DNA from: Ideonella benzenivorans | GTDB lineage: Bacteria; Pseudomonadota; Gammaproteobacteria; Burkholderiales; Burkholderiaceae_C | Direction of reading: 5' to 3' | Length of the DNA: 64,000 nucleotides | NCBI RefSeq assembly: GCF_020387415.1 | Contig: NZ_JAGWCB010000012.1 | Location: 62,001 to 126,000, forward strand | Part shown: positions 4,233 to 64,000 of the stretch, piece by piece | How positions within the stretch are numbered: position 1 is the first letter of the stretch | Layout of the letters: each line of letters opens with the position of its first letter | Notes under the pieces: generated by a model | Databases searched by the model: none | Seen by the model: only the letters and a program-made list of their open reading frames with translations | Told to the model about the DNA's origin: nothing | Made by a program: the position numbers and the translations under genes

Positions 4233-4254
4233 AACGCCGCTTTGAAGCGGCGTT
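4233..4254 (-). terminator. Hairpin terminator after tRNA-Ser
   Basis: A near-perfect inverted repeat (AACGCCGCTT / AAGCGGCGTT) is followed on the minus strand by a run of five T. It lies just downstream of the tRNA-Ser 3' end. It is symmetric and could also act on the plus strand. Confidence 0.75.
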
Positions 4255-4268
4255 TTTGGCAAGGCGGT

Positions 4269-4361
4269 TGGCGGAGACGGAGGGATTCGAACCCTCGATG
4301 GAGTTTTTGACCCCATACTCCCTTAGCAGGGGAGCACCTTCGGCCTCTCGGTCACGTCTCC
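4269..4361 (-). tRNA. tRNA-Ser (anticodon GCU)
   Basis: On the minus strand the acceptor arms GGAGACG and CGTCTCC pair, followed by G and an encoded CCA. The anticodon stem CTCCC/GGGAG encloses the seven-base loop CTGCTAA, giving anticodon GCT for AGC/AGU codons. A GGTTCGAATCC T-arm and a long variable arm of class II tRNA type are present. The 93-base length including CCA fits tRNA-Ser. A terminator follows. Confidence 0.95.
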
Positions 4362-4389
4362 AACCTAAGCTTTGCAGTATAGCGTGAAA

Positions 4390-5679
4390 TTACGCTTTTG
4401 CCTCGTCGATTGTCGGAATTGCTGCATCCAGATCGAAAGCCTTGTGCAGCGCGCGCACGGCGAGCTCCATGTACTTCTCCGCGATCACGACCGAAGTCTT
4501 GATTTCGCTGGTGCTGATCATCTGGATGTTGATGCCCTCTTCGCTCAGCGAACGGAACATCTTGCTGGCCACGCCCACATGGCTGCGCATGCCAATGCCG
4601 ACGATCGAAACCTTGCAGATCTTGGGATCGCCCAGCACGTCTGACGCGCCAGTGGCCGGCTGCACCTGTGTGCGCAGCAGGTCCAGCGTGCGCTGGTAAT
4701 CGTTGCGGTTGACCGTGAACGAGAAGTCGGTCTTGCCGTTCGACGACACGTTCTGGATGATGACATCCACCTCGATGTTGGCGTCCGCCACCGCACCCAG
4801 GATCTGGGACGCAACGCCCGGCTTGTCCGGCACGCCCGTCACGGTGACCTTGGCTTCGTCGCGGCTGAAGGCGATGCCCGAGACAACGGCTTGTTCCATC
4901 TTTTCGTCTTCCTCGAAGGTGATCAGAGTGCCCGACTTGGCCTCTTCCTCAACACTGATATCCCAGGGGGTGAAGCTGGAGAGCACCCGCAGCGGCACGC
5001 GGTACTTGCCGGCGAACTCGACCGAGCGGATCTGCAGCACCTTGGAGCCCAGGCTGGCCATTTCCAGCATTTCCTCGAAGCTGATCGTGCTCAGACGACG
5101 GGCTTCGGGCACGATGCGCGGATCGGTGGTGTAGACACCGTCCACGTCGGTGAAAATCAGGCATTCGTCGGCCTTCATCGCCGCGGCAATCGCCACCGCC
5201 GAGGTGTCCGAACCGCCCCGACCCAGCGTGGTGACGTTCTGGCCCTCGTCCACGCCCTGGAAGCCGGTGATCACGACCACCTTGCCGGCCGCCAGATCGG
5301 CGCGCACCTTGGTGTCGTCGATGCTCTCGATGCGCGCCTTGGTGTAGGCCGAATCGGTCTTGATGGGCACCTGCCAGCCTGAATAGCTGATCGCCTCCAT
5401 GCCTTCGGCCTGCAGCGCCAGGGACAACAGCCCGACCGACACCTGCTCGCCGGTGCAGGCGATCATGTCGAGCTCGCGCAGCATCGCAGGCGTCTGTTTG
5501 GCGGGAGAGACTTCCTTGGCCAGGCCCAGCAGGCGGTTGGTTTCCCCGCTCATTGCCGAAGGAACGACGACCATCTGGTGGCCCGCGCGGGCCCACTTGG
5601 CCACGCGCTTGGCGACATTGCGGATGCGCTCGGTCGAGCCCATCGACGTGCCGCCGTATTTGTGTACGATCAAAGCCAT
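4390..5679 (-). CDS. lysC: Aspartate kinase
   Basis: This 429-residue enzyme phosphorylates aspartate, the first step toward lysine, threonine and methionine. The N-terminal kinase motif KYGGTSMGS (from residue 7) and the TLGRGGSDTSA and TDVDGVYTTDP stretches are intact. The C-terminal third carries two ACT-type regulatory domains, with VTVTGVPDKPGVAS and VSIVGIGMRSHVG marking their starts. This implies feedback control by lysine and/or threonine. The ATG at 5679 is chosen because the kinase motif begins six residues later; the open frame continues upstream only as antisense to tilS. It sits between tilS and tRNA-Ser on the same strand. Confidence 0.96.
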   Translation of the reverse strand: MALIVHKYGGTSMGSTERIRNVAKRVAKWARAGHQMVVVPSAMSGETNRLLGLAKEVSPAKQTPAMLRELDMIACTGEQVSVGLLSLALQAEGMEAISYSGWQVPIKTDSAYTKARIESIDDTKVRADLAAGKVVVITGFQGVDEGQNVTTLGRGGSDTSAVAIAAAMKADECLIFTDVDGVYTTDPRIVPEARRLSTISFEEMLEMASLGSKVLQIRSVEFAGKYRVPLRVLSSFTPWDISVEEEAKSGTLITFEEDEKMEQAVVSGIAFSRDEAKVTVTGVPDKPGVASQILGAVADANIEVDVIIQNVSSNGKTDFSFTVNRNDYQRTLDLLRTQVQPATGASDVLGDPKICKVSIVGIGMRSHVGVASKMFRSLSEEGINIQMISTSEIKTSVVIAEKYMELAVRALHKAFDLDAAIPTIDEAKA

Positions 5680-5753
5680 GAGGTTGCGAATGTAGCGACA
5701 GCGCCCAGGTGGGCGAAAGACTTGCACAGCCGCTTCGCGACCACGCAAACCCC

Positions 5754-7127
5754 CTATTCTATGGGATCGCTGGCGTTTTCGAGCCGGTCGGCCGTCCAGA
5801 CAGGCCGCCACTGGCGCACCCCGGGGGCAGCCCACTGGCGGGCATCCACCCCCAGCCCCGGCACGAACAGCACCGTGGGCGCGTCCGTGTGGGGATCCAA
5901 GCGGCACAGCAGCGGCGCATCGCGCAGCCAGGCCGGAACACCGACCGCCTGGAATTGTTTCTTCAGGTTGCGGGGCGGCCGCCCGGGCCCCAGCTGAAAC
6001 GTCTCCCCGCCCTGGCGCGACAGGACCCAGGCATCCTGCAGCTGAGCCTGGCTGAGCCCACCTTCCTGGGCGGGCTCGAAATGCAGCGTGCCCCTCCAGG
6101 CGCTCAGCCTGATGGGGCTCACCCCCCGCACCGGCCATCGCGAGCCCCATGCCAAGGGCTTGGCAGAGGATGCAACCTCCGCCTGTGTGACCGACAGAAC
6201 GCCCCGGTAGAGCTGCCAGACCAGCCCCCCTTCGGACGGCCAGCGGGCAGCACCGGGCCGCCCCAGGCGCGCCAGCATCTGACGCTGCAGCATCTCGTGC
6301 GGTGGCGGCTGTTGAAACATCCGGGCGGCCTGCCGCAGCCAGGCCTGCAACGCGAACTGCTGCCGCACCGGCGACAGCTGAGCCCAGGCCTGCAAGGGCA
6401 GCCGGTCTGGCTGACCGCCCAGCTGATGCAGATCGGCCTGTGCCACCTCGTCGATCAACTGGGCCGCCGCCTGGCTGTGCCGGGCCACTGTCACCAGAGC
6501 CTCCGAAGCGGCCGGAAAGTGCTGCGTCAGCACCGGCAGCACGGCCTGACGAATTCGGTTGCGCGCGAAGCGGAGGTCCTGGTTGCTGTCGTCCTCCACG
6601 TGCCGCAGCCGGTGCCGGGCCACATAGTGCGCAATCGCCGTGGCTGGCTGATCCAGCCAGGGACGGATCCAGCACAGGCCGTCGCGCCACATCAGCCCCG
6701 GCATGGCCGCCAGGCCCCTCGGGCCTGCGCCACGCAGGGCTTGCAGCAACACGGTCTCGGCCTGGTCGCGCCGGTGGTGGGCCAACAGCACCGTGTCGGC
6801 CCCTTCGGCCCGGGCCAGTTCGGCCAAGGCGGCGTAACGTTCGCGCCGGGCCCAGGCCTCCACGCTTTCGCCAGCGGACGGTCGGGAGGTCAATCGCCGC
6901 GCACGAAACTGCAAGGCCGCATCACCGGCCGCCCAGCGGTGCACCTGTGCGCGGGCCTGGGCCAGCCAGCGGTCGGCCTGCGGCATCAGGCCGTGGTGAA
7001 CATGCAAGGCCACCACCCGCAGCCCGGTGCCCCGGGCCTGGCGCCACACGGCGTGCAGCAAGGCGGTCGAATCGCGCCCACCGCTGAAGGCCACGGCGAG
7101 CACGGGGGCCGCCGGTGCGGCGGCCAT
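5754..7127 (-). CDS. tilS: tRNA(Ile)-lysidine synthetase TilS
   Basis: This 457-residue N-type ATP pyrophosphatase modifies C34 of the CAU-anticodon tRNA-Ile to lysidine, allowing AUA decoding. The PP-loop AFSGGRDSTALL is near the N terminus. HVHHGL, LLAHHRRDQAETVLLQALRG and the DDSNQD...RNRIR motif follow in family order. The C-terminal region is more variable. The gene starts four bases after the accA stop and is followed by lysC on the same strand, so accA-tilS-lysC are probably co-transcribed. Confidence 0.94.
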   Translation of the reverse strand: MAAAPAAPVLAVAFSGGRDSTALLHAVWRQARGTGLRVVALHVHHGLMPQADRWLAQARAQVHRWAAGDAALQFRARRLTSRPSAGESVEAWARRERYAALAELARAEGADTVLLAHHRRDQAETVLLQALRGAGPRGLAAMPGLMWRDGLCWIRPWLDQPATAIAHYVARHRLRHVEDDSNQDLRFARNRIRQAVLPVLTQHFPAASEALVTVARHSQAAAQLIDEVAQADLHQLGGQPDRLPLQAWAQLSPVRQQFALQAWLRQAARMFQQPPPHEMLQRQMLARLGRPGAARWPSEGGLVWQLYRGVLSVTQAEVASSAKPLAWGSRWPVRGVSPIRLSAWRGTLHFEPAQEGGLSQAQLQDAWVLSRQGGETFQLGPGRPPRNLKKQFQAVGVPAWLRDAPLLCRLDPHTDAPTVLFVPGLGVDARQWAAPGVRQWRPVWTADRLENASDPIE

Positions 7128-7131
7128 GGTC

Positions 7132-8103
7132 TCAGCGCGCCGAGGTGTCGGTGAAACGGCCGTAGGACTTCAGGCGCTCATAGCGGCGCGCCAGAAGATC
7201 CGGTACCGACAGGTCGGACACCTGCCGCAGCGCATCGACCAGCGCGCGCTTGACCGAGGTGGCCATGTGCTTGGGATCGCGGTGGGCACCGCCCACGGGT
7301 TCGTTGACGATCTTGTCGATCAGGCCGAGCGCCTTCAGACGGTGGGCGGTGATACCCAGGGCCTCGGCGGCATCCGACGCGCGCTCGGCCGTCTTCCACA
7401 GGATGGAAGCGCAGCCTTCCGGCGAGATGACGGAATAGACGGAGAACTGCAGCATCAGCACCTGGTCGGCCACGCTGATGGCCAGCGCGCCGCCCGAACC
7501 GCCTTCCCCGATGATCGTGGTGATGATCGGCACTTCGAGCTGGGCCATCTCGAAGATGTTGCGGCCGATGGCCTCGGACTGGCCACGCTCCTCGGCGCCG
7601 ATACCGGGATAGGCGCCCGGGGTGTCCACAAAGGTGAACACCGGCAGGCCGAACTTCTCGGCCAGCTTCATCAGGCGCAGCGCTTTGCGGTACCCCTCGG
7701 GCCGCGGCATGCCGAAATTGCGCGCTGCGCGCTCCTTGGTGTCCCGGCCCTTCTGCTGCCCCACGACCATGCAGGCCTGGCCATTGAAACGGGCCAACCC
7801 CCCGACGATGGACTGGTCGTCCGCGAAGGCGCGATCGCCGTGCAGTTCCTGGAAGTCGGTGAAGATCTCGTTGACGTAGTCCAGCGTGTAGGGACGCTGA
7901 GGATGGCGGGCGATCTGCGTGACCTGCCAGGGTGACAGCTGGGTGTAGATGTCCTTGGTCAGCTGCAGGCTCTTCTTGTCCAGCCGATCGATCTCTTCCG
8001 AGATGTCCACCGCCGACTCGTTCTGGACGTAGCGCAGTTCTTCGATCTTCGACTCGAGTTCGGCAATCGGCTGTTCAAAGTCCAGGAAGTGTCGCTTGCT
8101 CAT
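7132..8103 (-). CDS. accA: Acetyl-CoA carboxylase carboxyltransferase subunit alpha
   Basis: This 323-residue protein is the alpha half of the carboxyltransferase that makes malonyl-CoA for fatty acid synthesis. It pairs with AccD, encoded elsewhere. Family motifs include the N-terminal helical [14 protein letters not shown]-like region, [17 protein letters not shown] and [12 protein letters not shown], which form the CoA-binding and oxyanion sites. Length matches the family. The ATG at 8103 has a clear AAGGAGT ribosome binding site. The open frame could extend 23 codons upstream but without a better start. Confidence 0.97.
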
Positions 8104-8135
8104 GGGCGGGTACTCCTTTTTCAAGCGCAAAGAGA

Positions 8136-8789
8136 TCAGTAATCGACGGGCAGCGGATCGAGGCTGCGCCACAGGTACCAGGTGGCCACCGAACGGTACG
8201 GCGCCCAGCCTTCTCCCAGCTCACGCGCCTCGGCACGCGACACGGGCTCGCCGCTGAAGTAGCGGTTGCTGATGCCCTTGAGCAGGCCCAGGTCGTCAAG
8301 CGGCAACACGTTGGGGCGCATGAGGTGGAAGATCAGAAACATCTCGGCCGTCCAACGACCGATGCCGCGGATTGCCACCAGCTCGTCGATGATGGCTTCA
8401 TCGTCCATGTGCTGCCACTGCGGCACATGGACCTCGCCCTCGACGAAATGCCTGGCCAGATCCCGCAGGTATTCTGCCTTGCGCGCCGACAGACCGGCAG
8501 CGCGCAAGCTAGGGGTCTCCTGCGCCAGGACGAGCGTGGGATCAATCGCGTAAGAGGGGCCGCCCAGCAGCGCGGCGAACTTGTCCCAGACCGATTGGGC
8601 CGCCTTGACCGAGATCTGCTGCCCGACCACCGAGCGCGCCAGCGTGGTGAAGGCGTCGCCCCGGCTTTGCAGACGGGCCTCACCGAACTGGGGGATGAGC
8701 TTCTTCATCACCCGGTCGCGCTTGGAAAGGTACTTGCAGGCGTCGTCCCAGTAACCGGGGGTGACGCCTAGACTGGATGCATCTGCCAC
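8136..8789 (-). CDS. DNA-3-methyladenine glycosylase II (AlkA-like)
   Basis: This 217-residue helix-hairpin-helix DNA glycosylase removes alkylated bases. The HhH element [13 protein letters not shown] (about 138-150) is followed by the catalytic Asp in VLPLDDLG (Asp165/166). The N-terminal [12 protein letters not shown] motif is typical of the short AlkA/MagI type that lacks the Ada-like extra domain. The only start compatible with the frame is GTG at 8789, one base after the cysS stop, which suggests coupling to cysS. The order cysS - glycosylase - accA on one strand suggests a transcript. Confidence 0.9.
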
Positions 8790-8790
8790 G

Positions 8791-10167
<1,377 letters not shown>

Positions 10168-54585: not shown

Positions 54586-55776
54586 TCAGCGCGCGTCCAG
54601 CCGGGCCAGGCCGGCGGCCAGGTCGGCGATCAGATCGTCCACGGCTTCCAGGCCGATGCACAGGCGCACCAGCGTGCCGCGGTAGGGGCTGCCCAGCGTG
54701 CGCATGGCGCCACCCTGGTAAGGCACGGCCAGGCTCACCGGCCCGCCCCAGCTCCAGCCGATGCGAAAGCGCTGCAGCCCGTCGACGAAGCCGTCGACCT
54801 GCGCGGCGCTGAAACGCGGGTCCATCTCCAGCGTCAGCAGGCCGGCCGCGGCGCGGCACAGCGCCGCCCAGTGGGCATGGCCTGGGGAATCCGGCAGCGC
54901 CGGGTGCAGCACGCGTGTCACCTGCGGCTGGGCCTGCGCCCAGGCCGCGATGCGCCGGGCGGCGGCGTCCTGCGCCGCATAGCGCAGCGGCAGGCTGGGC
55001 AGGTTGCGCAGCACCAGCTCGACATCGTTGGCACCCACGCCCAGGCCCAGGCGGCTGTGCGTCCAGGCCAGCTTCTCGTACAGGGCCGTGTCGCGGCAGG
55101 CCACCGAGCCCATCAGCACGTCCCCGCCGCCCGAGGGGTACTTGGTCAGCGCATGGATGGTCACATCCACCGCGAGCCCCTCGCCCAGCGCGAAGGCATC
55201 GAAGGCCAGGCCGGCGCCCCAGGTGTTGTCCAGGGCGATCACGGCCTGCGGCGCCTTCTCCCGCACCGTTCGCACCAGGGCCGGCAGGTCGGGGAACTCC
55301 AGCGTCACCGAGCCCGGTGCCTCCAGCCAGACCAACTTGACGGTCTCGTCCAGCGCCTGGGCCAGGCTGTCGGGCTGCATCGCGTCGTACAGGCGGTGGC
55401 CAATGCCCCAGGCTGCCATCTCGTGGCGGGCGAAGTCCTTGCTGGGGTTGTAGACGTTGTCCGGCATTAGCAGGGTGTCGCCCGCCTTCAGCAGGCCCAT
55501 GTTGACCACGGTGATGGCCGACAGCCCGCTGGGCGCCAGCAGCACATGCTGGGCGCCTTCCAGCGTGGCCAGCCGGGCCTCCAGCGTGAAGGTGGTGGGC
55601 GTGCCGTGCAGGCCGTAGGTGTAGGCGCTCTTGTCCACCCAGCTGCGCTGGCGCAGCGCCGCCATGGTGGGGAAGTAGACCGTGGAACCCTTGCACACCG
55701 GCACGGCGGGCGATTCGAAATCGCCCGGGGCCTGGTAGGGGTGGTGGATCAGGTCGGTGGACTTGGAATCACTCAT
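54586..55776 (-). CDS. metC: Cystathionine beta-lyase-like PLP enzyme
   Basis: This 396-residue Cys/Met-metabolism PLP enzyme is predicted to cleave cystathionine to homocysteine, pyruvate and ammonia. PLP-binding lysine lies in IHALTKYPSGGGDVLMG, and TYGLHGTPTTFTLEARLATLEG with SGLSAITVVNMGLLKAGD form the cofactor site. The sequence LIHHPYQAPGDFESPAVPVCKGST is the usual MetC-type start. Related gamma-lyases cannot be ruled out. It is convergent with the activator gene and lies 22 bases after rimO on the same strand. Confidence 0.87.
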   Translation of the reverse strand: MSDSKSTDLIHHPYQAPGDFESPAVPVCKGSTVYFPTMAALRQRSWVDKSAYTYGLHGTPTTFTLEARLATLEGAQHVLLAPSGLSAITVVNMGLLKAGDTLLMPDNVYNPSKDFARHEMAAWGIGHRLYDAMQPDSLAQALDETVKLVWLEAPGSVTLEFPDLPALVRTVREKAPQAVIALDNTWGAGLAFDAFALGEGLAVDVTIHALTKYPSGGGDVLMGSVACRDTALYEKLAWTHSRLGLGVGANDVELVLRNLPSLPLRYAAQDAAARRIAAWAQAQPQVTRVLHPALPDSPGHAHWAALCRAAAGLLTLEMDPRFSAAQVDGFVDGLQRFRIGWSWGGPVSLAVPYQGGAMRTLGSPYRGTLVRLCIGLEAVDDLIADLAAGLARLDAR

Positions 55777-57818: not shown

Positions 57819-58025
57819 CGGGATGGGGCTCCGTGGTGCTGGCGCCCCCGGGGCATCGGGAGGCGCGACCGATTCTAGTGGTGCCCCCCCGGTGTCGAGC
57901 CCCGGGATTGCACGGTTGGCTGCAGCGCAGCAAAGCGCAGCTGCTTATGCGCGTCACGTGCTTCGCGCCGGCCCGAGAAGGCGATAGCCTTGGGGGCTGC
58001 TTTCACACCCCACACACAAAACACC

Positions 58026-59324
58026 ATGAGCTCTGCACCGCAACGCTTCGAAACCCTGGCCGTCCATGCCGGTTACGACCCCGACCCCACCACCAAGTCG
58101 GTGGCCGTGCCGCTCTACCAGACGGTGGCCTACGCCTTCGACAGCGCCCAGCACGGCGCCGACCTGTTCGACCTGAAGGTGCCGGGCAACATCTACACCC
58201 GCATCATGAACCCGACCACCGACGTGCTGGAAAAGCGCGTCGCGGCGCTGGAAAGCGGCATCGGCGCCCTGGCCCTGGCCTCGGGCCAGGCCGCAGTCAC
58301 CTATGCCATCCTGACCATCACCGAGGCCGGCGACAACATCGTCTCCTCCAGCGCCCTGTACGGCGGCACCTACAACCTGCTGGCCCACACGCTGCCGCAG
58401 TATGGCATCCAGACCCGCTTTGCCGACTACCGCCAGCCCGAGCAGTTCGAAAGCCTGATCGACGAACGCACCAAGGCGCTCTACGCCGAGACCCTGGGCA
58501 ACCCCAAGGGCAATGTGACCGACATCGCCCGCCTGGCCGAGATCGCCCACCGGCACGGCATCCCGCTGATCGTGGACAACACGGTGGCCAGCCCCTACCT
58601 GTGCCGGCCGATCGAGCACGGCGCCGACATCGTGGTGGAGTCGCTCACCAAGTACCTGGGCGGCCACGGCACCAGCCTGGGCGGCGCCATCATCGATTCG
58701 GGCAAATTCCCCTGGGCCCAGCACAAGGCGCGCTTCAAACGGCTGAACGAGCCGGATGTGAGCTACCACGGCGTGGTCTACACCGAGGCCCTGGGCCCGG
58801 CGGCCTACATCGGCCGGGCGCGCGTGGTGCCGCTGCGCAACACCGGCGCGGCCATCTCGCCCTTCAACGCCTTCCAGATCCTGCAGGGCATCGAGACCCT
58901 GGCCCTGCGCATGGACCGCATCTGCGACAACACCCTGGCGCTGGCCCAGTACCTGCAACAGCACCCCAAGGTGGGCTGGGTCAACTACGCCGGGCTGGCA
59001 GACCACCCCGAGCACCCGCTGGCCCAGAAGTACCTGGGCGGCCGCCCCTCGGGCCTGTTCACCTTCGGCGTGAAAGCGCCGGCCGGCCACGGCCGTGAAG
59101 CCGGTGCGCGCTTCCTGGATGGCTTGAAGCTCTTCACCCGCCTGGTGAACATCGGCGACGCCAAGTCGCTGGCCACCCACCCGGCCTCCACCACCCACCG
59201 CCAGCTCTCGCCCGCGGAACTGGAGAAGGCCGGTGTGAGCGAGGACGCGGTGCGCCTGTCGGTGGGCATCGAGCATGTGGACGACCTGATCGCCGACCTC
59301 GACCAGGCGCTGGCGGCCGTCTGA
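58026..59324 (+). CDS. metY: O-acetylhomoserine sulfhydrylase (MetY-type)
   Basis: This 432-residue PLP enzyme is predicted to make homocysteine directly from O-acetyl- or O-succinylhomoserine and sulfide. The start FETLAVHAGYDPDPTTKSVAVPLYQTVAY, the cofactor site ASGQAAVTYAILTI, and the PLP lysine in VVESLTKYLGGHGTSLGG identify the MetY group. C-terminal VRLSVGIEHVDDLIADLDQAL is typical. Substrate preference is not visible. The ATG at 58026 has only a weak ribosome binding site. No SAM-riboswitch fold was recognised in the 207-base upstream region. Confidence 0.93.
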   Translation: MSSAPQRFETLAVHAGYDPDPTTKSVAVPLYQTVAYAFDSAQHGADLFDLKVPGNIYTRIMNPTTDVLEKRVAALESGIGALALASGQAAVTYAILTITEAGDNIVSSSALYGGTYNLLAHTLPQYGIQTRFADYRQPEQFESLIDERTKALYAETLGNPKGNVTDIARLAEIAHRHGIPLIVDNTVASPYLCRPIEHGADIVVESLTKYLGGHGTSLGGAIIDSGKFPWAQHKARFKRLNEPDVSYHGVVYTEALGPAAYIGRARVVPLRNTGAAISPFNAFQILQGIETLALRMDRICDNTLALAQYLQQHPKVGWVNYAGLADHPEHPLAQKYLGGRPSGLFTFGVKAPAGHGREAGARFLDGLKLFTRLVNIGDAKSLATHPASTTHRQLSPAELEKAGVSEDAVRLSVGIEHVDDLIADLDQALAAV

Positions 59325-59421
59325 GCTGCGCGGCATGAAGAAAGGCCGCCGGCACAGAGGTGGCCTATAAGATGCTTGCCGCTGGGGGCCTGTGTGCCCC
59401 CGGCCGCACGCTTCATCGTTC

Positions 59422-60210
59422 ATGACTCCCCCCGCTTCGTCCCCGATCCGCAAGGCGCGCGCTGCCGCCACGCGCGCCGGTGGCGTGCTGCGGCCCGCCC
59501 CGCCCCCTTCGGTGACGGAGGCCCCCTCGCCGCTGTTCCGCCCGACGCTACCGCCCAGCAGCGAGCCGGTGGCCCCGCCGCGGCGCACCGTGCGCCAGCC
59601 CCGGCAGCGCCACCATGCCGGCCGCGCGCAGATCCTGGCGGCCATCCGCAGTTCGGCCATCGACGTCTTCAGCCGCCACGGCTTTGCCGGTGCCACCATG
59701 CAGGCCGTCGCCGAGGGCGCCGGCCTGACCAAGCAGCAACTGCTCTATTACGCCGGCAGCAAGGACGAGCTCTACGCCAACCTGCTGCACGAGGTGGTCA
59801 ACGAATGGCGCGAGGCCTTTTCGCTGACCGAGGAAGCGGGCCAGACCCCCGCCCAGTTGCTGCGCGACTATGTGCACCGCAAGCTGCACTACGCCCTGGT
59901 CAATGGGCCGGTGTCGCGCATCTTCACCGCCGAGATGCTGGCCGGTGGCACCCACATCGCCCGCTACTGGCCGGAGATGCTGGCCTCGACCCAGTCCAAG
60001 GCCCGGCTGCTGCAGCGCTGGATGGATGCCGGCCTGCTGCGCCCGCGCGACCCGCTGCTGCTGCTGCAGCAGATCTGGGGCATGACCCAGTACTACGCCG
60101 ACTACCAGGCCCAGGTGGCGGTGATGATGGGCGCCCACCCGCCGCAGGACGCCATCGCTGACGAGATCGCCACCACGGTGCTGCTGGCCTGCGGGCTCTC
60201 GCCCGACTGA
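59422..60210 (+). CDS. TetR-family regulator, RutR-like
   Basis: This 262-residue regulator has an unusual Pro/Ala/Arg-rich N-terminal extension of about 65 residues before a TetR helix-turn-helix (RAQILAAIRSSAIDVFSRHGFAGATMQAVAEGAGLTKQQLLYYAGSKDELY). Its ligand domain ends like the RutR/YcdC group (LLLLQQIWGMTQYYADYQAQV). RutR senses uracil or thymine in E. coli; here the ligand is unknown. It directly precedes the nitrogen-scavenging operon, where a RutR-like operator lies at the expected promoter. The start at 59422 is the only ATG before the fold; GTG near residue 50 is an alternative. Confidence 0.85.
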   Translation: MTPPASSPIRKARAAATRAGGVLRPAPPPSVTEAPSPLFRPTLPPSSEPVAPPRRTVRQPRQRHHAGRAQILAAIRSSAIDVFSRHGFAGATMQAVAEGAGLTKQQLLYYAGSKDELYANLLHEVVNEWREAFSLTEEAGQTPAQLLRDYVHRKLHYALVNGPVSRIFTAEMLAGGTHIARYWPEMLASTQSKARLLQRWMDAGLLRPRDPLLLLQQIWGMTQYYADYQAQVAVMMGAHPPQDAIADEIATTVLLACGLSPD

Positions 60211-60241
60211 TCTGCCGATCCGCCGGACGGATTCTGGTGCG

Positions 60242-60256
60242 GCACGCCTCAAGTGC
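60242..60256 (+). promoter_or_regulatory. NtrC-type activator site 1
   Basis: GCAC-GCCTCAA-GTGC has the exact GCAC-N7-GTGC layout of NtrC sites such as those at E. coli glnA (from memory). It lies about 155-170 bases upstream of the predicted sigma-54 start. Confidence 0.5.
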
Positions 60257-60265
60257 GTGCATCGC

Positions 60266-60280
60266 GCACCCTGGGCGTGA
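60266..60280 (+). promoter_or_regulatory. NtrC-type activator site 2 (near match)
   Basis: GCAC-CCTGGGC-GTGA matches the GCAC-N7-GTGC core in seven of eight positions. Its centre is 24 bases from site 1, slightly more than two helical turns, a spacing suitable for cooperative binding. Confidence 0.35.
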
Positions 60281-60383
60281 GCCCTTCCCGGGGCTCCGTC
60301 GTCCCCTTTCCCAGCACGCCCCAGCGGCGCTGAAGACGCAGCGCCGACGCCGCGCCACCCGGCGCTGGCCCCGCCGTGCCGCC

Positions 60384-60398
60384 TGGCATCGCGCTTGC
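60384..60398 (+). promoter_or_regulatory. Sigma-54 promoter of the nitrogen-scavenging operon
   Basis: TGGCATC-GCGC-TTGC carries the -24 GG and -12 GC separated by exactly ten bases, with TGGCA and TTGC intact. The predicted start is near 60410, about 27 bases before the ATG of the first enzyme gene. Confidence 0.75.
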
Positions 60399-60403
60399 TT
60401 ATT

Positions 60404-60419
60404 TTGACCAACAGTCCAA
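60404..60419 (+). promoter_or_regulatory. RutR-like operator over the predicted start site
   Basis: TTGACCA-AC-AGTCCAA has one exact TTGACCA half and a weaker second half (four of seven bases) compared with the RutR consensus TTGACCA-NN-TGGTCAA. It covers the expected transcription start, so binding by the adjacent TetR-type protein would block transcription. Confidence 0.55.
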
Positions 60420-60436
60420 TTTAAGAGCCGATCGCC

Positions 60437-61024
60437 ATGCGTGTCCTTGTGATCTTCTGCCACCCGGTGGAAACCAGCTTCAACGCGGCCCTGCACCAGG
60501 AAGTGTTGCAAGGCCTGCGGGCCGCCGGCCACGAGGTCGATGACTGCGACCTCTACGCCGAAGGCTTCAACCCGGTGCTCTCGCGCGAGGAACGCCTGGG
60601 CTACCACACCGTGCCCAGCAACCAACTGCCCGTCAAACGCTATGTGGAGCGGCTGCAGTGGGCCGAGGGCCTGGTGTTCTGTTTTCCCACCTGGTGCATG
60701 GGCCTGCCGGCCATGCTCAAGGGCTTCTTCGACCGGGTGCTGATGCCCGGTGTGGCCTTCGACATCAGCGACCCGGCCCACGTCAAGCCGGCGCTGACCC
60801 ACCTGAAGCACATCTCGGCGGTGGTCACCTACGGCCGGCCGCGCTATGTGGCCTGGTACATGGGCGACCCGCCGCGCCGCGTCATCCAGCGCTACCTGCG
60901 CCTGCTCACCGGCGGCACCGCGCGCATCAGCTACCACCCGTACTACCACATGAACGTGGCCACGCCGACCACGCTGGGGGCCTTCAAGGCCAAGGTGCGC
61001 GCCGCCATGGAACGCTTCGCCTGA
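60437..61024 (+). CDS. Flavodoxin-fold NAD(P)H oxidoreductase (MdaB/KefF-like)
   Basis: This 195-residue protein has the flavodoxin-like NAD(P)H:quinone oxidoreductase fold: VLVIFCHPVETSFNAALH at the N-terminal FMN/FAD-binding loop, CFPTWCMGLPAMLKGFFDRVLMPG, and THLKHISAVVTYGRP. It could supply reduced flavin or reduce a heterocyclic intermediate. As the first gene after a sigma-54/RutR-like control region, it is predicted to act in the same pathway as the downstream amidohydrolase and creatininase. Its substrate is unknown. Confidence 0.82.
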   Translation: MRVLVIFCHPVETSFNAALHQEVLQGLRAAGHEVDDCDLYAEGFNPVLSREERLGYHTVPSNQLPVKRYVERLQWAEGLVFCFPTWCMGLPAMLKGFFDRVLMPGVAFDISDPAHVKPALTHLKHISAVVTYGRPRYVAWYMGDPPRRVIQRYLRLLTGGTARISYHPYYHMNVATPTTLGAFKAKVRAAMERFA

Positions 61025-61029
61025 ACGCC

Positions 61030-62340
61030 ATGGCCAGCCCCACCCTCACCGCCACGGCGCCCACGCGGCTGCTCAACGCCCGCCTGCCGCGCTGGCTGCT
61101 GCCGGCCGCTTGGCCGATGGACGCCGCAGGCCGTCCGGCCCTGGCCTGCCTCCGTCTGCAAGACGGCCGCATCCAGGCCCTGGCCCCGATGGCACCGGAC
61201 ACCGCAGCGGCCTCCGCCGCCGACTGGGACCTGGCCGGCGCGCCGGTGCTGCCCGGCCTGGTGGACGCCCACACCCACCTCGACAAGACCTTCACGCTGG
61301 ACCGCATCGGCGCCGTGAAGCCGGGCCTCCTGGCCGCCATCGAGGCCATGATGGCGGACCGCGCCCACTGGACCCGCGCGGACATCCATGCCCGTGCCAG
61401 CCAAGCCCTGCGCTGGGCCTGGGAAGCTGGCGTGACCCGCATCCGCAGCCATGTGGATTGGTGGGAACCCAGCCAGGAGCCACTGGGCTGGTCGGTGCTG
61501 GGCGAGCTGGCGCAAGAGTGGGCCGGCCGCATCCAGCTGGAGCGCGCCGCGCTGATCCCGCAGACTGCCTTCGAGGACCTGACCCAGGCGCACCGCCTGG
61601 CCCGCCACATCGCCGCCAGCGGCCCCGGTGCCCTGCTGGGCGGCTTCATCCATTCGCACCACTGGACGGCCCGCTCGGCCCGCCAGCTGCTGCAGGCCGC
61701 GGCCGAGGCCGACCTGGACCTGGACCTGCATGTGGACGAAGAACTCAACCCTGCCGCCGAGGGCCTGGCCCTGGTGGCCCGCACGCTGCGCGAGATCGGC
61801 TACGCCGGCCGGGCCGTCTGCGGCCATGTCTGCGCGCTGTCGGCCCAACCCGAAGCCCAGGCCCTGGCCACGCTGGACGCGGTGGCCCAGGCCCCCATCA
61901 CACTGGTCTCCCTGCCCATCACCAACCTGCTGCTGCAGGACGCCGTGACCGGCCGCACCCCGCGCCAGCGCGGCATCACCCTGGTCAAGGAAGCGCGCGA
62001 GCGCGGTATCCCGGTGCTGCTGGCCAGCGACAACGTCGAGGACCCGTTCTGCGCCATCGGCAGCTACGACCCGGTCGACGCCTTCGCCACCGGCGTGCAG
62101 GTGGCCCAGCTGCCCGAGGCCTTCGACAGCTGGTCCCAGGCCCTGTGTCGGCCCGACTGGCTCGACCGGTGCGCCAGCGCTGGCTGGGAGGCGTCGCCGG
62201 CCCTGACCGGCCGCGTGGCCGACCTCGTCATCTTCACCCGCGCCGGTGCCAGCGGCTGGCCCTCGCGTGCGCAACACCGGGTGGTGCTGCGCGCCGGGCA
62301 GCGGCTGGCGCCCACCTCTTTCGACACGGTGACCCCATGA
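61030..62340 (+). CDS. Cytosine-deaminase-like amidohydrolase
   Basis: This 436-residue amidohydrolase has the CodA-type metal site: HTHLDK (His81, His83), LHVDEELN (His234, Glu237), GHVCAL (His266) and ASDNVEDPF (Asp334). The order and spacing match cytosine deaminase, suggesting hydrolytic deamination or ring opening of a cyclic amidine. E. coli-type specificity is not assured, since flanking residues differ (SDNVEDPF rather than GHDDVFDPW). It starts five bases after the oxidoreductase gene, and its stop overlaps the next start (ATGA). No codB permease is adjacent. Confidence 0.85.
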   Translation: MASPTLTATAPTRLLNARLPRWLLPAAWPMDAAGRPALACLRLQDGRIQALAPMAPDTAAASAADWDLAGAPVLPGLVDAHTHLDKTFTLDRIGAVKPGLLAAIEAMMADRAHWTRADIHARASQALRWAWEAGVTRIRSHVDWWEPSQEPLGWSVLGELAQEWAGRIQLERAALIPQTAFEDLTQAHRLARHIAASGPGALLGGFIHSHHWTARSARQLLQAAAEADLDLDLHVDEELNPAAEGLALVARTLREIGYAGRAVCGHVCALSAQPEAQALATLDAVAQAPITLVSLPITNLLLQDAVTGRTPRQRGITLVKEARERGIPVLLASDNVEDPFCAIGSYDPVDAFATGVQVAQLPEAFDSWSQALCRPDWLDRCASAGWEASPALTGRVADLVIFTRAGASGWPSRAQHRVVLRAGQRLAPTSFDTVTP

Positions 62341-62807
62341 ACACCTCTGCTTCTGCCGGCGCCGCGCCGCTGGCCCGCTACGCCGCCAGCCGCCGCGTGG
62401 GCGACTACATCTTCCTGTCTGGCGTCATCGCGGTGGACCCGGCCGCCAGCCGCATCGTGCGCGGCTATGACGACATCCCGCCCGAGGCGGCGGCGTTGAT
62501 TGGCCGCACTGGCGAGTTCTCCTGCGACATCAAGGAAGGCCCGATCCTGGCCCAGAGCTGGTACGTGCTGGACCGCATCCGCCAGACCATCGAGGCCGAG
62601 GGCGGCCGCATGGAGGACGTGTTCAAGCTGGTGCAGTACTTCCGCGACCTGGACCACTTCCCGCTCTACAACCGGGTGCGCAAGCTGTTCTATCCGAACC
62701 AGCCCCCGGTCTCCACCGTGGTCGGGGTCAGCGGCCTGATGCCCACCGACGACATCCTGATCGAGGTGGAAGGCACGGCCTATCTGCCGCTGCCCCGCCC
62801 GGAGTGA
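62337..62807 (+). CDS. Divergent RidA-family protein
   Basis: This 156-residue protein has the RidA/YjgF fold, with VGDYIFLSGVIAVDP, GPILAQSWYVLDRIRQTIEAEGG and DVFKLVQYFRDLDHF. Canonical RidA enzymes carry an Arg in a P-A-R-S type segment that binds the enamine/imine carboxylate; here the equivalent region reads QPPVSTVVGVSGL with Val instead. It may therefore have lost enamine deaminase activity or act on a different substrate. RutC plays a similar position in the rut pathway. It overlaps the neighbouring genes at both ends. Confidence 0.85.
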   Translation: MNTSASAGAAPLARYAASRRVGDYIFLSGVIAVDPAASRIVRGYDDIPPEAAALIGRTGEFSCDIKEGPILAQSWYVLDRIRQTIEAEGGRMEDVFKLVQYFRDLDHFPLYNRVRKLFYPNQPPVSTVVGVSGLMPTDDILIEVEGTAYLPLPRPE

Positions 62808-62812
62808 ACGCC

Positions 62813-63673
62813 ATGCTGCACGGCTTCTGCCCCCCTGCCCGCTTTCTGCCCTACCTGAGCTGGACCGACATCACGACCCTGCCCGACCGCGAGAACACCG
62901 TCATCGTGCTGCCTGTGGGCGCCACCGAACAGCACGGGCCGCACCTGCCCTGCGCGGTGGACACGCTGATCGCCGCCGGTGTCGTGGGCCATGCGCTGTC
63001 GCGCCTGCCGGCCTCGGTGCCGGCCTATGCGATGGCGCCCATCACCTACGGCAAGTCCGAGGAGCACCTGCACTTTCCCGGCACCGTCACCCTCACCGGC
63101 CGCACGCTGCTGTCCACCATCGAGGAGTTGGGCGAGTCGGTCTACCGCGCGGGCTTTCGCAAGCTGCTGTTCGTGAACGGCCACGGCGGCCAGCCCCAAG
63201 TGCTGGAGATGGCGGCGCGCGAACTGCGCCTGCGCCACGGCGACTTCATCGTCGTGCCCAGCTTCACCTGGCGGGTGCCGCATGTGGCGGGCCAGTACCT
63301 GAGCGAACGCGAGAAGCGCCTGGCCATGCACGCCGGCCATGCCGAGACCGCGCTGGTGCTGGCCCTGGCCCCCGAGACCGTGCACATGGAACGGGCCGAG
63401 GCCCACTACCCGCCCGAGTTCCCGTCCAAGCTGCTGTCGCCCGATGGCCGGCCCGCCTGCGCCTGGGCCGCCCGCGACTTCGGCGACAGCGGTGTGATCG
63501 GCGACCCGACCCCGGCCACCGCCGAACAGGGCCAGGCCATCCTCGATTCGCTGGCCACGGGCTGGGCCCAGGCCATCACCGAGCTGCATGCAGCCCGCTG
63601 GCCCGCGCGCAGCGCCGAGACCTGGGAGCGCGGCCACTTCACCGGCGATGTGGCCGGCCGTACCGCCGCCTGA
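62813..63673 (+). CDS. Creatininase-family amidohydrolase
   Basis: This 286-residue protein belongs to the creatininase family, metal-dependent hydrolases of cyclic amides and formamides. Metal ligands are Glu39, His41 and Asp50 in GATEQHGPHLPCAVD, with GHGG in FVNGHGGQP and Glu in MHAGHAETALVL. In this cluster it probably opens a ring or removes a formyl group produced by the cytosine-deaminase-like enzyme. ATG 62813 has GGAG eight bases upstream; GTG at 62804 is an alternative. The ABC binding-protein gene follows 70 bases later. Confidence 0.86.
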   Translation: MLHGFCPPARFLPYLSWTDITTLPDRENTVIVLPVGATEQHGPHLPCAVDTLIAAGVVGHALSRLPASVPAYAMAPITYGKSEEHLHFPGTVTLTGRTLLSTIEELGESVYRAGFRKLLFVNGHGGQPQVLEMAARELRLRHGDFIVVPSFTWRVPHVAGQYLSEREKRLAMHAGHAETALVLALAPETVHMERAEAHYPPEFPSKLLSPDGRPACAWAARDFGDSGVIGDPTPATAEQGQAILDSLATGWAQAITELHAARWPARSAETWERGHFTGDVAGRTAA

Positions 63674-63743
63674 ACGGGCGCACCCCGATCCCTCGTTCAC
63701 CTTTCACCGTCCCTTCCTCCCTTAGCCGTAGGAGTTCTTCACG

Positions 63744-64000
63744 ATGCAACGCCGTACTTCCTTCTCCTTCAAGCGCACCGGCCGCGTGCTGGCCGCTGGC
63801 CTGGCTCTGCTGGCCGCGGGCGCCTCGCACGCCGCCGAGGAGAAGTTCGTCTACCTGACCAACTGGTTCGCCCAGGCCGAGCATGGCGGCTTCTACCAGG
63901 CGGTGGCCACCGGCCTGTACAAGAAGCACGGCCTGGACGTGACCATCAAGATGGGCGGCCCACAGGTCAACGGCGTGCAGCTGCTGGCCGCCGGTCAGGC
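63744..64000 (+). CDS. NMT1/THI5-like ABC transporter substrate-binding protein (5' part only)
   Basis: The visible 85 residues start with a cleavable export signal (RVLAAGLALLAAGASHA, cut about residue 31), followed by KFVYLTNWFAQAEHGGFYQAVATGLYKKHGLDVTIKMGGPQVNG. This is the substrate-binding protein pattern of the NMT1/THI5-like family, which includes uptake proteins for pyrimidine-type compounds. A TAGGAG ribosome binding site precedes ATG 63744. The gene is cut by the window end; permease and ATPase genes are expected beyond it. It supports uptake of the pathway substrate. Confidence 0.85.
   Translation, partial: MQRRTSFSFKRTGRVLAAGLALLAAGASHAAEEKFVYLTNWFAQAEHGGFYQAVATGLYKKHGLDVTIKMGGPQVNGVQLLAAGQ

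Follow-up and report, generated by a model that had tools for sequence, protein, structure and literature searches.

The window analysed here is a stretch of 64,000 nucleotides from Ideonella benzenivorans (positions 62,001 to 126,000 of contig NZ_JAGWCB010000012.1, C13 in our numbering). Its right end carries the left portion of a ten-gene, single-strand run that extends beyond the window edge and that is probably an operon for the uptake and breakdown of pteridines under control of a RutR-like repressor; pterins are the ring system of folate. A first-pass annotation had described six genes in one strand-consistent run, overlapping or closely spaced, and Pfam matches above cut-off as well as the coordinates agree with this, all six lying on the + strand. 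The run begins with a TetR-family regulator with a RutR-like (TetR_C_3/YcdC-type) C-terminus (59422–60210; Pfam TetR_C_3, 90.6 bits; an alternative start of this open reading frame (ORF) is the GTG at 59392). It is followed by a flavodoxin-fold NAD(P)H oxidoreductase (60437–61024; Flavodoxin_2, 107.4 bits), an amidohydrolase of the cytosine-deaminase group, probably a pteridine deaminase (61030–62340; Amidohydro_3, 68.9 bits), a RidA-like protein (62337–62807; Ribonuc_L-PSP, 50.6 bits), a creatininase-family enzyme that is probably a cyclic amide (lactam) hydrolase (62813–63673; PF02633, 249.8 bits) and an NMT1/THI5-like substrate-binding protein of an ATP-binding cassette (ABC) transporter, classed by Pfam NMT1 only (63744–64000 and on to C13:126748; PF09084, 105.5 bits). 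The annotation had also pointed to the right flank as the place to look for an ABC permease, an ATPase and further enzymes. Both transporter genes are found there on the same strand (C13 126814–128462: ATPase 126814–127644, permease 127641–128462), followed by a FAD_binding_4 oxidase (C13 128488–129867) and a CMP/dCMP-type zinc deaminase (C13 129860–130360), the last gene of the run. The genes for amidohydrolase and RidA overlap by 4 bases, those for ATPase and permease by 4 and those for FAD oxidase and deaminase by 8.

The regulator had been called RutR-like by the first-pass annotation. Its best match in the Protein Data Bank (PDB) is indeed RutR (3loc, E 4e-27), but with 120.4 bits it stays far below the NCBIfam RutR cut-off of 368. 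The cluster also resembles the Rut pathway in its RidA-like protein (RutC belongs to the RidA family) and its flavin chemistry. It differs in that RutA, RutB and RutD gave no match among the ten cluster proteins scanned, and the regulator and the RidA-like protein both score far under the rut cut-offs. As the best RutA match in the whole genome reaches 68.2 bits against a cut-off of 498.3, the standard rut pathway was rejected, in agreement with the earlier statement that these genes are lacking.

To see how far this gene set recurs we compared 80 amidohydrolase loci by unfiltered tblastn (E 1e-5) with the other window proteins as queries; contig ends shorten some of these loci. Matches in the same stretch were found for the FAD protein in 71 loci, for the creatininase and the ATPase in 68 each, for the binding protein in 67, the permease in 65, the TetR regulator in 58, RidA in 42, the flavodoxin-fold protein in 36 and the last-gene deaminase in 2. 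Some of the ABC and TetR matches may be unrelated, because both families are large. The clustering exceeds chance, and the co-occurrence across genomes that the first-pass annotation had proposed as a check is borne out. Clusters sharing the core genes occur in Burkholderiales, Enterobacterales, Rhodobacterales and Hyphomicrobiales. Among 150 genomes of the same family, the window genome included, the amidohydrolase was detected in 22 (E 1e-30) and the FAD protein in 23 (E 1e-60).

We inspected 20 stretches covering 27 amidohydrolase matches. Three cluster types can be distinguished, which are separate in the FAD as well as in the amidohydrolase tree: type A comprises the window, a member of the Comamonadaceae and plasmids of Pantoea and Klebsiella; type B comprises Variovorax, Rhodobacterales, Brucellaceae and others; type C comprises Rhizobium plasmids and further genomes of the same phylum. 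Best tblastn identities between types A and B, mosaics omitted, are mostly 33–47%, with 45–56% for ATPase and permease and 49–67% for RidA. Two Enterobacterales records have a PDR/VanB-type reductase and a LysR gene where the window has flavodoxin and TetR. The type A cluster of Enterobacterales is plasmid-borne (Klebsiella plasmid p2B17602, L038; a Pantoea plasmid, L035).

In addition we found mosaic loci (L089, in a genome also holding L055; L086, in the genome of L053; L087; L093), in which a type B amidohydrolase, FAD protein and creatininase are joined to a type A-like binding protein, ATPase and permease with 58–61, 70–73 and 66–72% identity, respectively (the contig of L086 ends before the permease). 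L089 additionally contains a type A FAD gene, a deaminase gene related to PDB 2paj and a 2-oxoglutarate (2OG) oxygenase. As these operons combine both, they tie the type A transporter to the pterin-type enzymes described below; the transporter of the mosaic operons may, however, serve a second substrate.

A 27-base inverted repeat, TGACC-N17-GGTCA, lies 5' of the first structural gene in eight of ten type A loci, the window being among the ten (present in L034, L039, L040, L042, L043, L044, L045 and L046; absent from L005 and L138, where the site is shorter with 16 bases). The half-sites of the RutR consensus read TTGACC. In the window the exact repeat does not occur; an operator-like site, TTGACCAACAGTCCAA, is located at 60404–60419 on the + strand, 17 bases 5' of the flavodoxin ATG. 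A genome-wide search with one operator consensus, allowing up to 3 mismatches, gave no match, this consensus being stricter than the site itself. The scan covered spacers from N10 to N20 and also returned N20 repeats within binding-protein and other genes and one N17 match inside the FAD gene of L043, all of which we took as chance. L045 (G105:C12) has two further sites, of which one (N16) lies where a pair of binding-protein and 2OG-oxygenase genes begins. Operator-like sites accompany each of three gene sets in this locus, namely two tandem type A amidohydrolase/creatininase sets and one with TetR, binding protein and 2OG oxygenase.

A first indication of the substrate comes from the FAD protein. 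It matches PDB 6v42 with 39% identity over 440 residues (E 6e-98; phmmer 331.7 bits, the next PDB match scoring 32.8), and 6v42 is also its top Foldseek match (TM 0.88, next 0.71). The title of the 6v42 entry describes a flavin oxygenase "involved in folate catabolism". In the FAD tree 6v42 falls outside the window clade (SH-aLRT 99), and two type B FAD proteins score higher to it than the window protein (354 and 402 bits vs 332). Its closer kin (about 66%) lie on two annotated Rhizobium plasmids, clustered with a creatininase, an ABC transporter, a 'cytosine deaminase', an NAD(P)H oxidoreductase and RidA, and kin at 65–76% are found in similar clusters of genomes of the same phylum (e.g. L171, L172, L175; closest 75–76%). 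The 6v42/6v43 pair and the Rhizobium clusters share protein family, fold and core genes with the window. They differ in an identity of only about 40%, and the two annotated Rhizobium records have LysR instead of TetR and lack the last-gene deaminase. No paper found in the open-access literature, to which our coverage was confined (subscription papers and theses lie outside it), names 6v42 or 6v43.

A second indication comes from the sister clusters. You et al. 2022 (PMC9513972) cloned a Variovorax deaminase active on folate and pteroate with a pair of primers, of which one lies at the start of the deaminase gene and the other on the 'endoribonuclease' gene that follows. Their PDA 5' primer fits the start of the type B amidohydrolase gene with 2–4 mismatches in 21 of 24 Variovorax loci and with 6 in the other three. 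The 'endoribonuclease' primer matches the beginning of the RidA gene that comes next, with 0, 1, 2 and 5 mismatches in 8, 7, 8 and 1 of the 24; as printed in the methods, it corresponds to the complement of the gene start in question. Shuffled primers (20 shuffles per primer, one strand, part of the loci, position ignored) also reached 3–6 mismatches somewhere in the locus set, and we therefore place the weight on the fit at both gene starts. Judged by this primer fit, the type B amidohydrolase of Variovorax is a member of the demonstrated pterin deaminase family. In the Variovorax loci the amidohydrolase is followed by a RidA gene as in the window, and they also contain a creatininase, an ABC transporter, a FAD oxidase and often TetR and a flavodoxin or Fer2 reductase. 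They differ from the window in amidohydrolase sequence and gene order, and by tetronate genes that adjoin the cluster there and not in the window. PMC9513972 leaves the steps beyond deamination open, and its main text contains neither the words 'gene cluster' nor 'transporter'.

The third indication is the variation of the deaminase itself. Some relatives carry a gene similar to PDB 2paj, which we take to be isoxanthopterin deaminase, reportedly described by Hall and colleagues in 2010. The copy in L038 reaches 673 bits to 2paj. Relatives of this deaminase (51–65%) are present in 10 of the 150 family genomes, and in seven of these (G001, G009, G039, G047, G101, G109, G115) the gene adjoins at least two type A transporter/FAD genes. 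In G041 it lies on a 3.8-kb contig with a Rieske gene as sole neighbour, and in G098 only a flavodoxin relative is nearby. The order in G109 is TetR, flavodoxin, creatininase, transporter, FAD, RidA, Rieske oxygenase and 2paj-like deaminase, without the amidohydrolase. A type A FAD gene (at least 56% identity) is present in 15 of the family genomes. Nine of these have the type A amidohydrolase and seven the 2paj-like gene, two of them having both; the remaining one (G064) holds a 52% relative of the last-gene deaminase of the window inside its cluster. Amidohydrolase and zinc deaminase occur together in the window, L044 and L138. The deaminase place is therefore filled by differing enzymes within one cluster type. 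A hypergeometric value of 0.0067 for the co-occurrence of amidohydrolase and 2paj-like gene is uncorrected for kinship and was not used. An enzyme of the 2paj kind occupies the deaminase place in some related clusters, although it belongs to another amidohydrolase branch than the window enzyme. Isoxanthopterin deaminase-type enzymes are reported in the available passages of PMC5270733, citing Hall et al. 2010.

Because the FAD protein is kin of 6v42, the sister amidohydrolase belongs to the pterin deaminase family and a 2paj-like deaminase is found in relatives, a pteridine is the most likely substrate. The window cluster holds the core set of amidohydrolase, creatininase, binding protein, ATPase, permease, FAD oxidase, flavodoxin (or Fer2) reductase and RidA, that is, the content of a pterin/folate cluster. 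In the scheme we propose, the NMT1-type binding protein, ATPase and permease would import a pteridine, and the operon would presumably be inducible. Loss of the exocyclic amino group would be due to the amidohydrolase, perhaps with the last-gene zinc deaminase taking part. The ring would then be oxygenated by the FAD protein, aided by the flavodoxin-fold NAD(P)H oxidoreductase as a probable supplier of flavin or electrons, the creatininase-family enzyme would hydrolyse the resulting lactam and so open the ring, and the RidA-like protein may act on a late intermediate. The likeliest chemistry would involve a 7-oxo intermediate resembling isoxanthopterin or violapterin, with the C7-N8 amide cut by the creatininase. 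The amidohydrolase has all the metal and catalytic residues of its group (HxH, HxDE, H, D): H81, H83, H234, D236, E237, H266 and D334 are invariant in 20 aligned rows, and the enzyme was also aligned to PDB deaminases. Likewise the creatininase motifs EQHGPHLP, a later D, N(G/S)HGG and E are invariant in 11 aligned members of types A, B and C, and we presume that these residues include metal ligands. Use as a carbon source or disposal of unwanted pterin would fit as well as use as a nitrogen source.

A number of observations weigh against the pteridine assignment. The window amidohydrolase forms its own clade (100% SH-aLRT), apart from that of the demonstrated pterin deaminase family, with 37–42% identity to the Variovorax type, and its 57% relative on plasmid pADP-1 (NC_004956.1; L033 13929–15260) lies next to the cyanuric acid operon atzDGEHF without the rest of the cluster. 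A 2paj-like deaminase was not found in the window genome at E 1e-80. The exchange of deaminases is not clean, because the 2paj-like gene of G148 has no cluster around it and G001, G009 and G064 have an additional type B amidohydrolase gene, located at another place or within a mosaic. Two cluster types occur in one genome in some cases (e.g. G122), so types A and B may differ in substrate. The operator of the window is degenerate, only the left half of TGACC-N17-GGTCA being intact, and a 3-oxo-tetronate kinase (OtnK), the relevance of which is discussed below, was not found in the window genome at E 0.001. Finally, the first-pass annotation had listed a divergent RidA protein, and the arginine of an ordinary RidA is missing: in a motif comparison the 13 aligned cluster RidAs, that of the window included, read P(V/A)ST and the ordinary RidA of the genome (L001) reads PARA. 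This arginine is an active-site residue of the RidA imine deaminases. Its absence makes an ordinary imine-deaminase role of the cluster RidA doubtful and weakens the RidA step of the scheme.

Other substrates were weighed against these data. The first-pass annotation had favoured a pathway in which a modified pyrimidine or similar heterocycle is taken up, deaminated and opened; candidate pyrimidines would be 5-methylcytosine, hydroxymethylpyrimidine or a ligand of the RutR type. The RutR-like regulator and the NMT1/THI5-like binding protein would agree with this, as would the predicted model of the amidohydrolase, which is nearest to 5-methylcytosine/cytosine deaminases. Moreover, its N335 aligns with D314 of CodA, a position (numbered 315 there) that passages of PMC6186785 describe as critical for specificity and at which a serine accompanies 5-methylcytosine use. 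A pyrimidine pathway nevertheless appears quite improbable in view of the FAD partner related to a folate-catabolism oxygenase, the pterin deaminase family of the sister amidohydrolase and the 2paj-like enzyme sharing the deaminase place. The more general idea, that the genes form a single module for taking up and hydrolysing a cyclic nitrogen compound, holds. Plain cytosine deaminase was rejected, as the amidohydrolase falls under all three cytosine-deaminase cut-offs listed; to NCBIfam PRK07583 it scores 316 bits (cut-off 403).

Breakdown of another fused or triazine ring by the same enzyme types, either an oxidised purine similar to 8-oxoguanine or an s-triazine or azapurine, would be suggested by the pADP-1 relative next to atzDGEHF, by the resemblance of the 2paj-like gene to 8-oxoguanine deaminase as well, and by the last-gene deaminase, whose nearest PDB sequences are the CMP/dCMP-type deaminases 8wlv and 5xkq, presumably s-triazine/5-azacytosine deaminases. 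The title of 6v42 and the Variovorax deaminase data favour pteridines, and we consider this alternative unlikely. The triazine lead from pADP-1 was itself rejected, since the gene there lacks any other cluster partner; it also adjoins a BMP-type ABC transporter. Use of creatinine or hydantoin, to which the creatininase-family gene might point, has next to no probability: the protein reaches 106.7 bits with the creatininase model TIGR04448 (cut-off 235), on which ground creatinine use was rejected, and 148.7 bits with the MftE model TIGR03964 (cut-off 172), and by Pfam none of the ten proteins is of the creatinase or hydantoinase type. One operon with its own regulator would equally suit a role in detoxifying or salvaging oxidised pterins from the cell itself instead of growth on external ones, but the presence of a binding protein, an ATPase and a permease dedicated to the cluster speaks for import and makes this purpose very improbable.

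Returning to breakdown of external pteridines, the surroundings of the sister clusters provide a hint at possible products. A 3-oxo-tetronate kinase is encoded in 24 of the 80 loci, 21 from Variovorax and one each from Frigidibacter (L105), Aquamicrobium (L116) and Paenochrobactrum (L122). At Variovorax L061 D-erythronate/L-threonate catabolic genes (4254–10001) adjoin the sister cluster; its LtnD, OtnI, OtnK and DenD pass the NCBIfam cut-offs and OtnC stays below (229.8, cut-off 250). L105, L116 and L122 each carry relatives of DenD, LtnD, OtnK, OtnC and OtnI with 34–53% identity to the L061 proteins. These three alphaproteobacteria share one clade of the FAD tree, and the tetronate link would therefore count as two or three origins, not five. 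The Rhodoferax cluster L088 contains a threonate dehydrogenase relative, and no tetronate genes were detected in any type A locus searched. The tetronate genes suggest a ring cleavage that frees C6 together with the side chain. It is conceivable, though we hold this only tentatively, that the cluster family represents a pathway, general among bacteria, in which the ring of unconjugated pterins is cleaved, leading via a 7-oxo lactam to tetronate products. Deamination and flavin-dependent oxygenation would yield the 7-oxo lactam, whose C7-N8 amide the creatininase-type enzyme would open. Hydrolysis at C6 would then release a diaminouracil-type pyrimidine and a keto acid that retains C7 and C6 together with the side chain and would go on to lose C7. 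From D-erythro-neopterin, C6 and the three side-chain carbons would become D-erythronate, and L-threo-monapterin would give L-threonate. If pterin ring cleavage yields tetronates in this way, the presence of D-erythronate/L-threonate genes beside the clusters of Variovorax and the three alphaproteobacteria would be explained, and the window type may be a branch for pterins without a neopterin- or monapterin-type side chain.

On the 3' side the operon is followed by tRNA-Val and, judged by eye, a RelA/SpoT-like gene on the opposite strand. To its left lie two PLP-type sulfur amino acid enzymes (window 54586–55776 and 57990–59324; by eye MetC-like and O-acetylhomoserine sulfhydrylase-like), flanking rimO-like and phaR-like genes (by eye). 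Some relatives are accompanied by oxygenases; of these, the window genome holds a 2OG relative (44–49%) and, more distantly related, a Rieske protein (27%), both outside the cluster on contig C18. C18 carries a second run (L206 5215–11232) consisting of LysR-like (by eye), 2OG oxygenase, hydrolase (by eye), binding protein, ATPase, permease and zinc deaminase genes. Its 2OG oxygenase is 44–49% identical to the copy in L089 and its zinc deaminase 63% identical to that in L087. This run is possibly a companion pathway.

The operon is best filed as a real, widely conserved and divergent branch of a partly known system for pterin/folate breakdown. The pathway had been called possibly undescribed; this still seems to apply to the route as a whole, for which we found no description, but not wholly to its kind, given the Variovorax pterin deaminase of PMC9513972 and PDB 6v42. 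Within the open-access literature we found no account of the complete route, nor of its transporter, regulator, creatininase step or tetronate link, and these may be in print in the subscription papers and theses beyond that coverage; the passages available from PMC12625717, PMC4617892, PMC12746152, PMC7662398 and PMC13054789 contained nothing on the cluster. As far as we searched, the joined-up gene set, the varying deaminases, the operator and the tetronate genes beside sister clusters are new. The dismantling of the pterin ring by bacteria is poorly described although most cells make or use pterins or folates. Arad3529 is reportedly a pterin deaminase (Fan and colleagues, 2013), in a study whose abstract is reported to suggest a pterin pathway not described before. 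A recurring cluster with transporter, regulator and oxygenase makes pterin-ring breakdown directly testable, and it offers a function for many genes labelled 'cytosine deaminase', 'creatininase' or 'FAD-binding oxidoreductase', while the tetronate genes beside the sister clusters predict what the carbon products would be.

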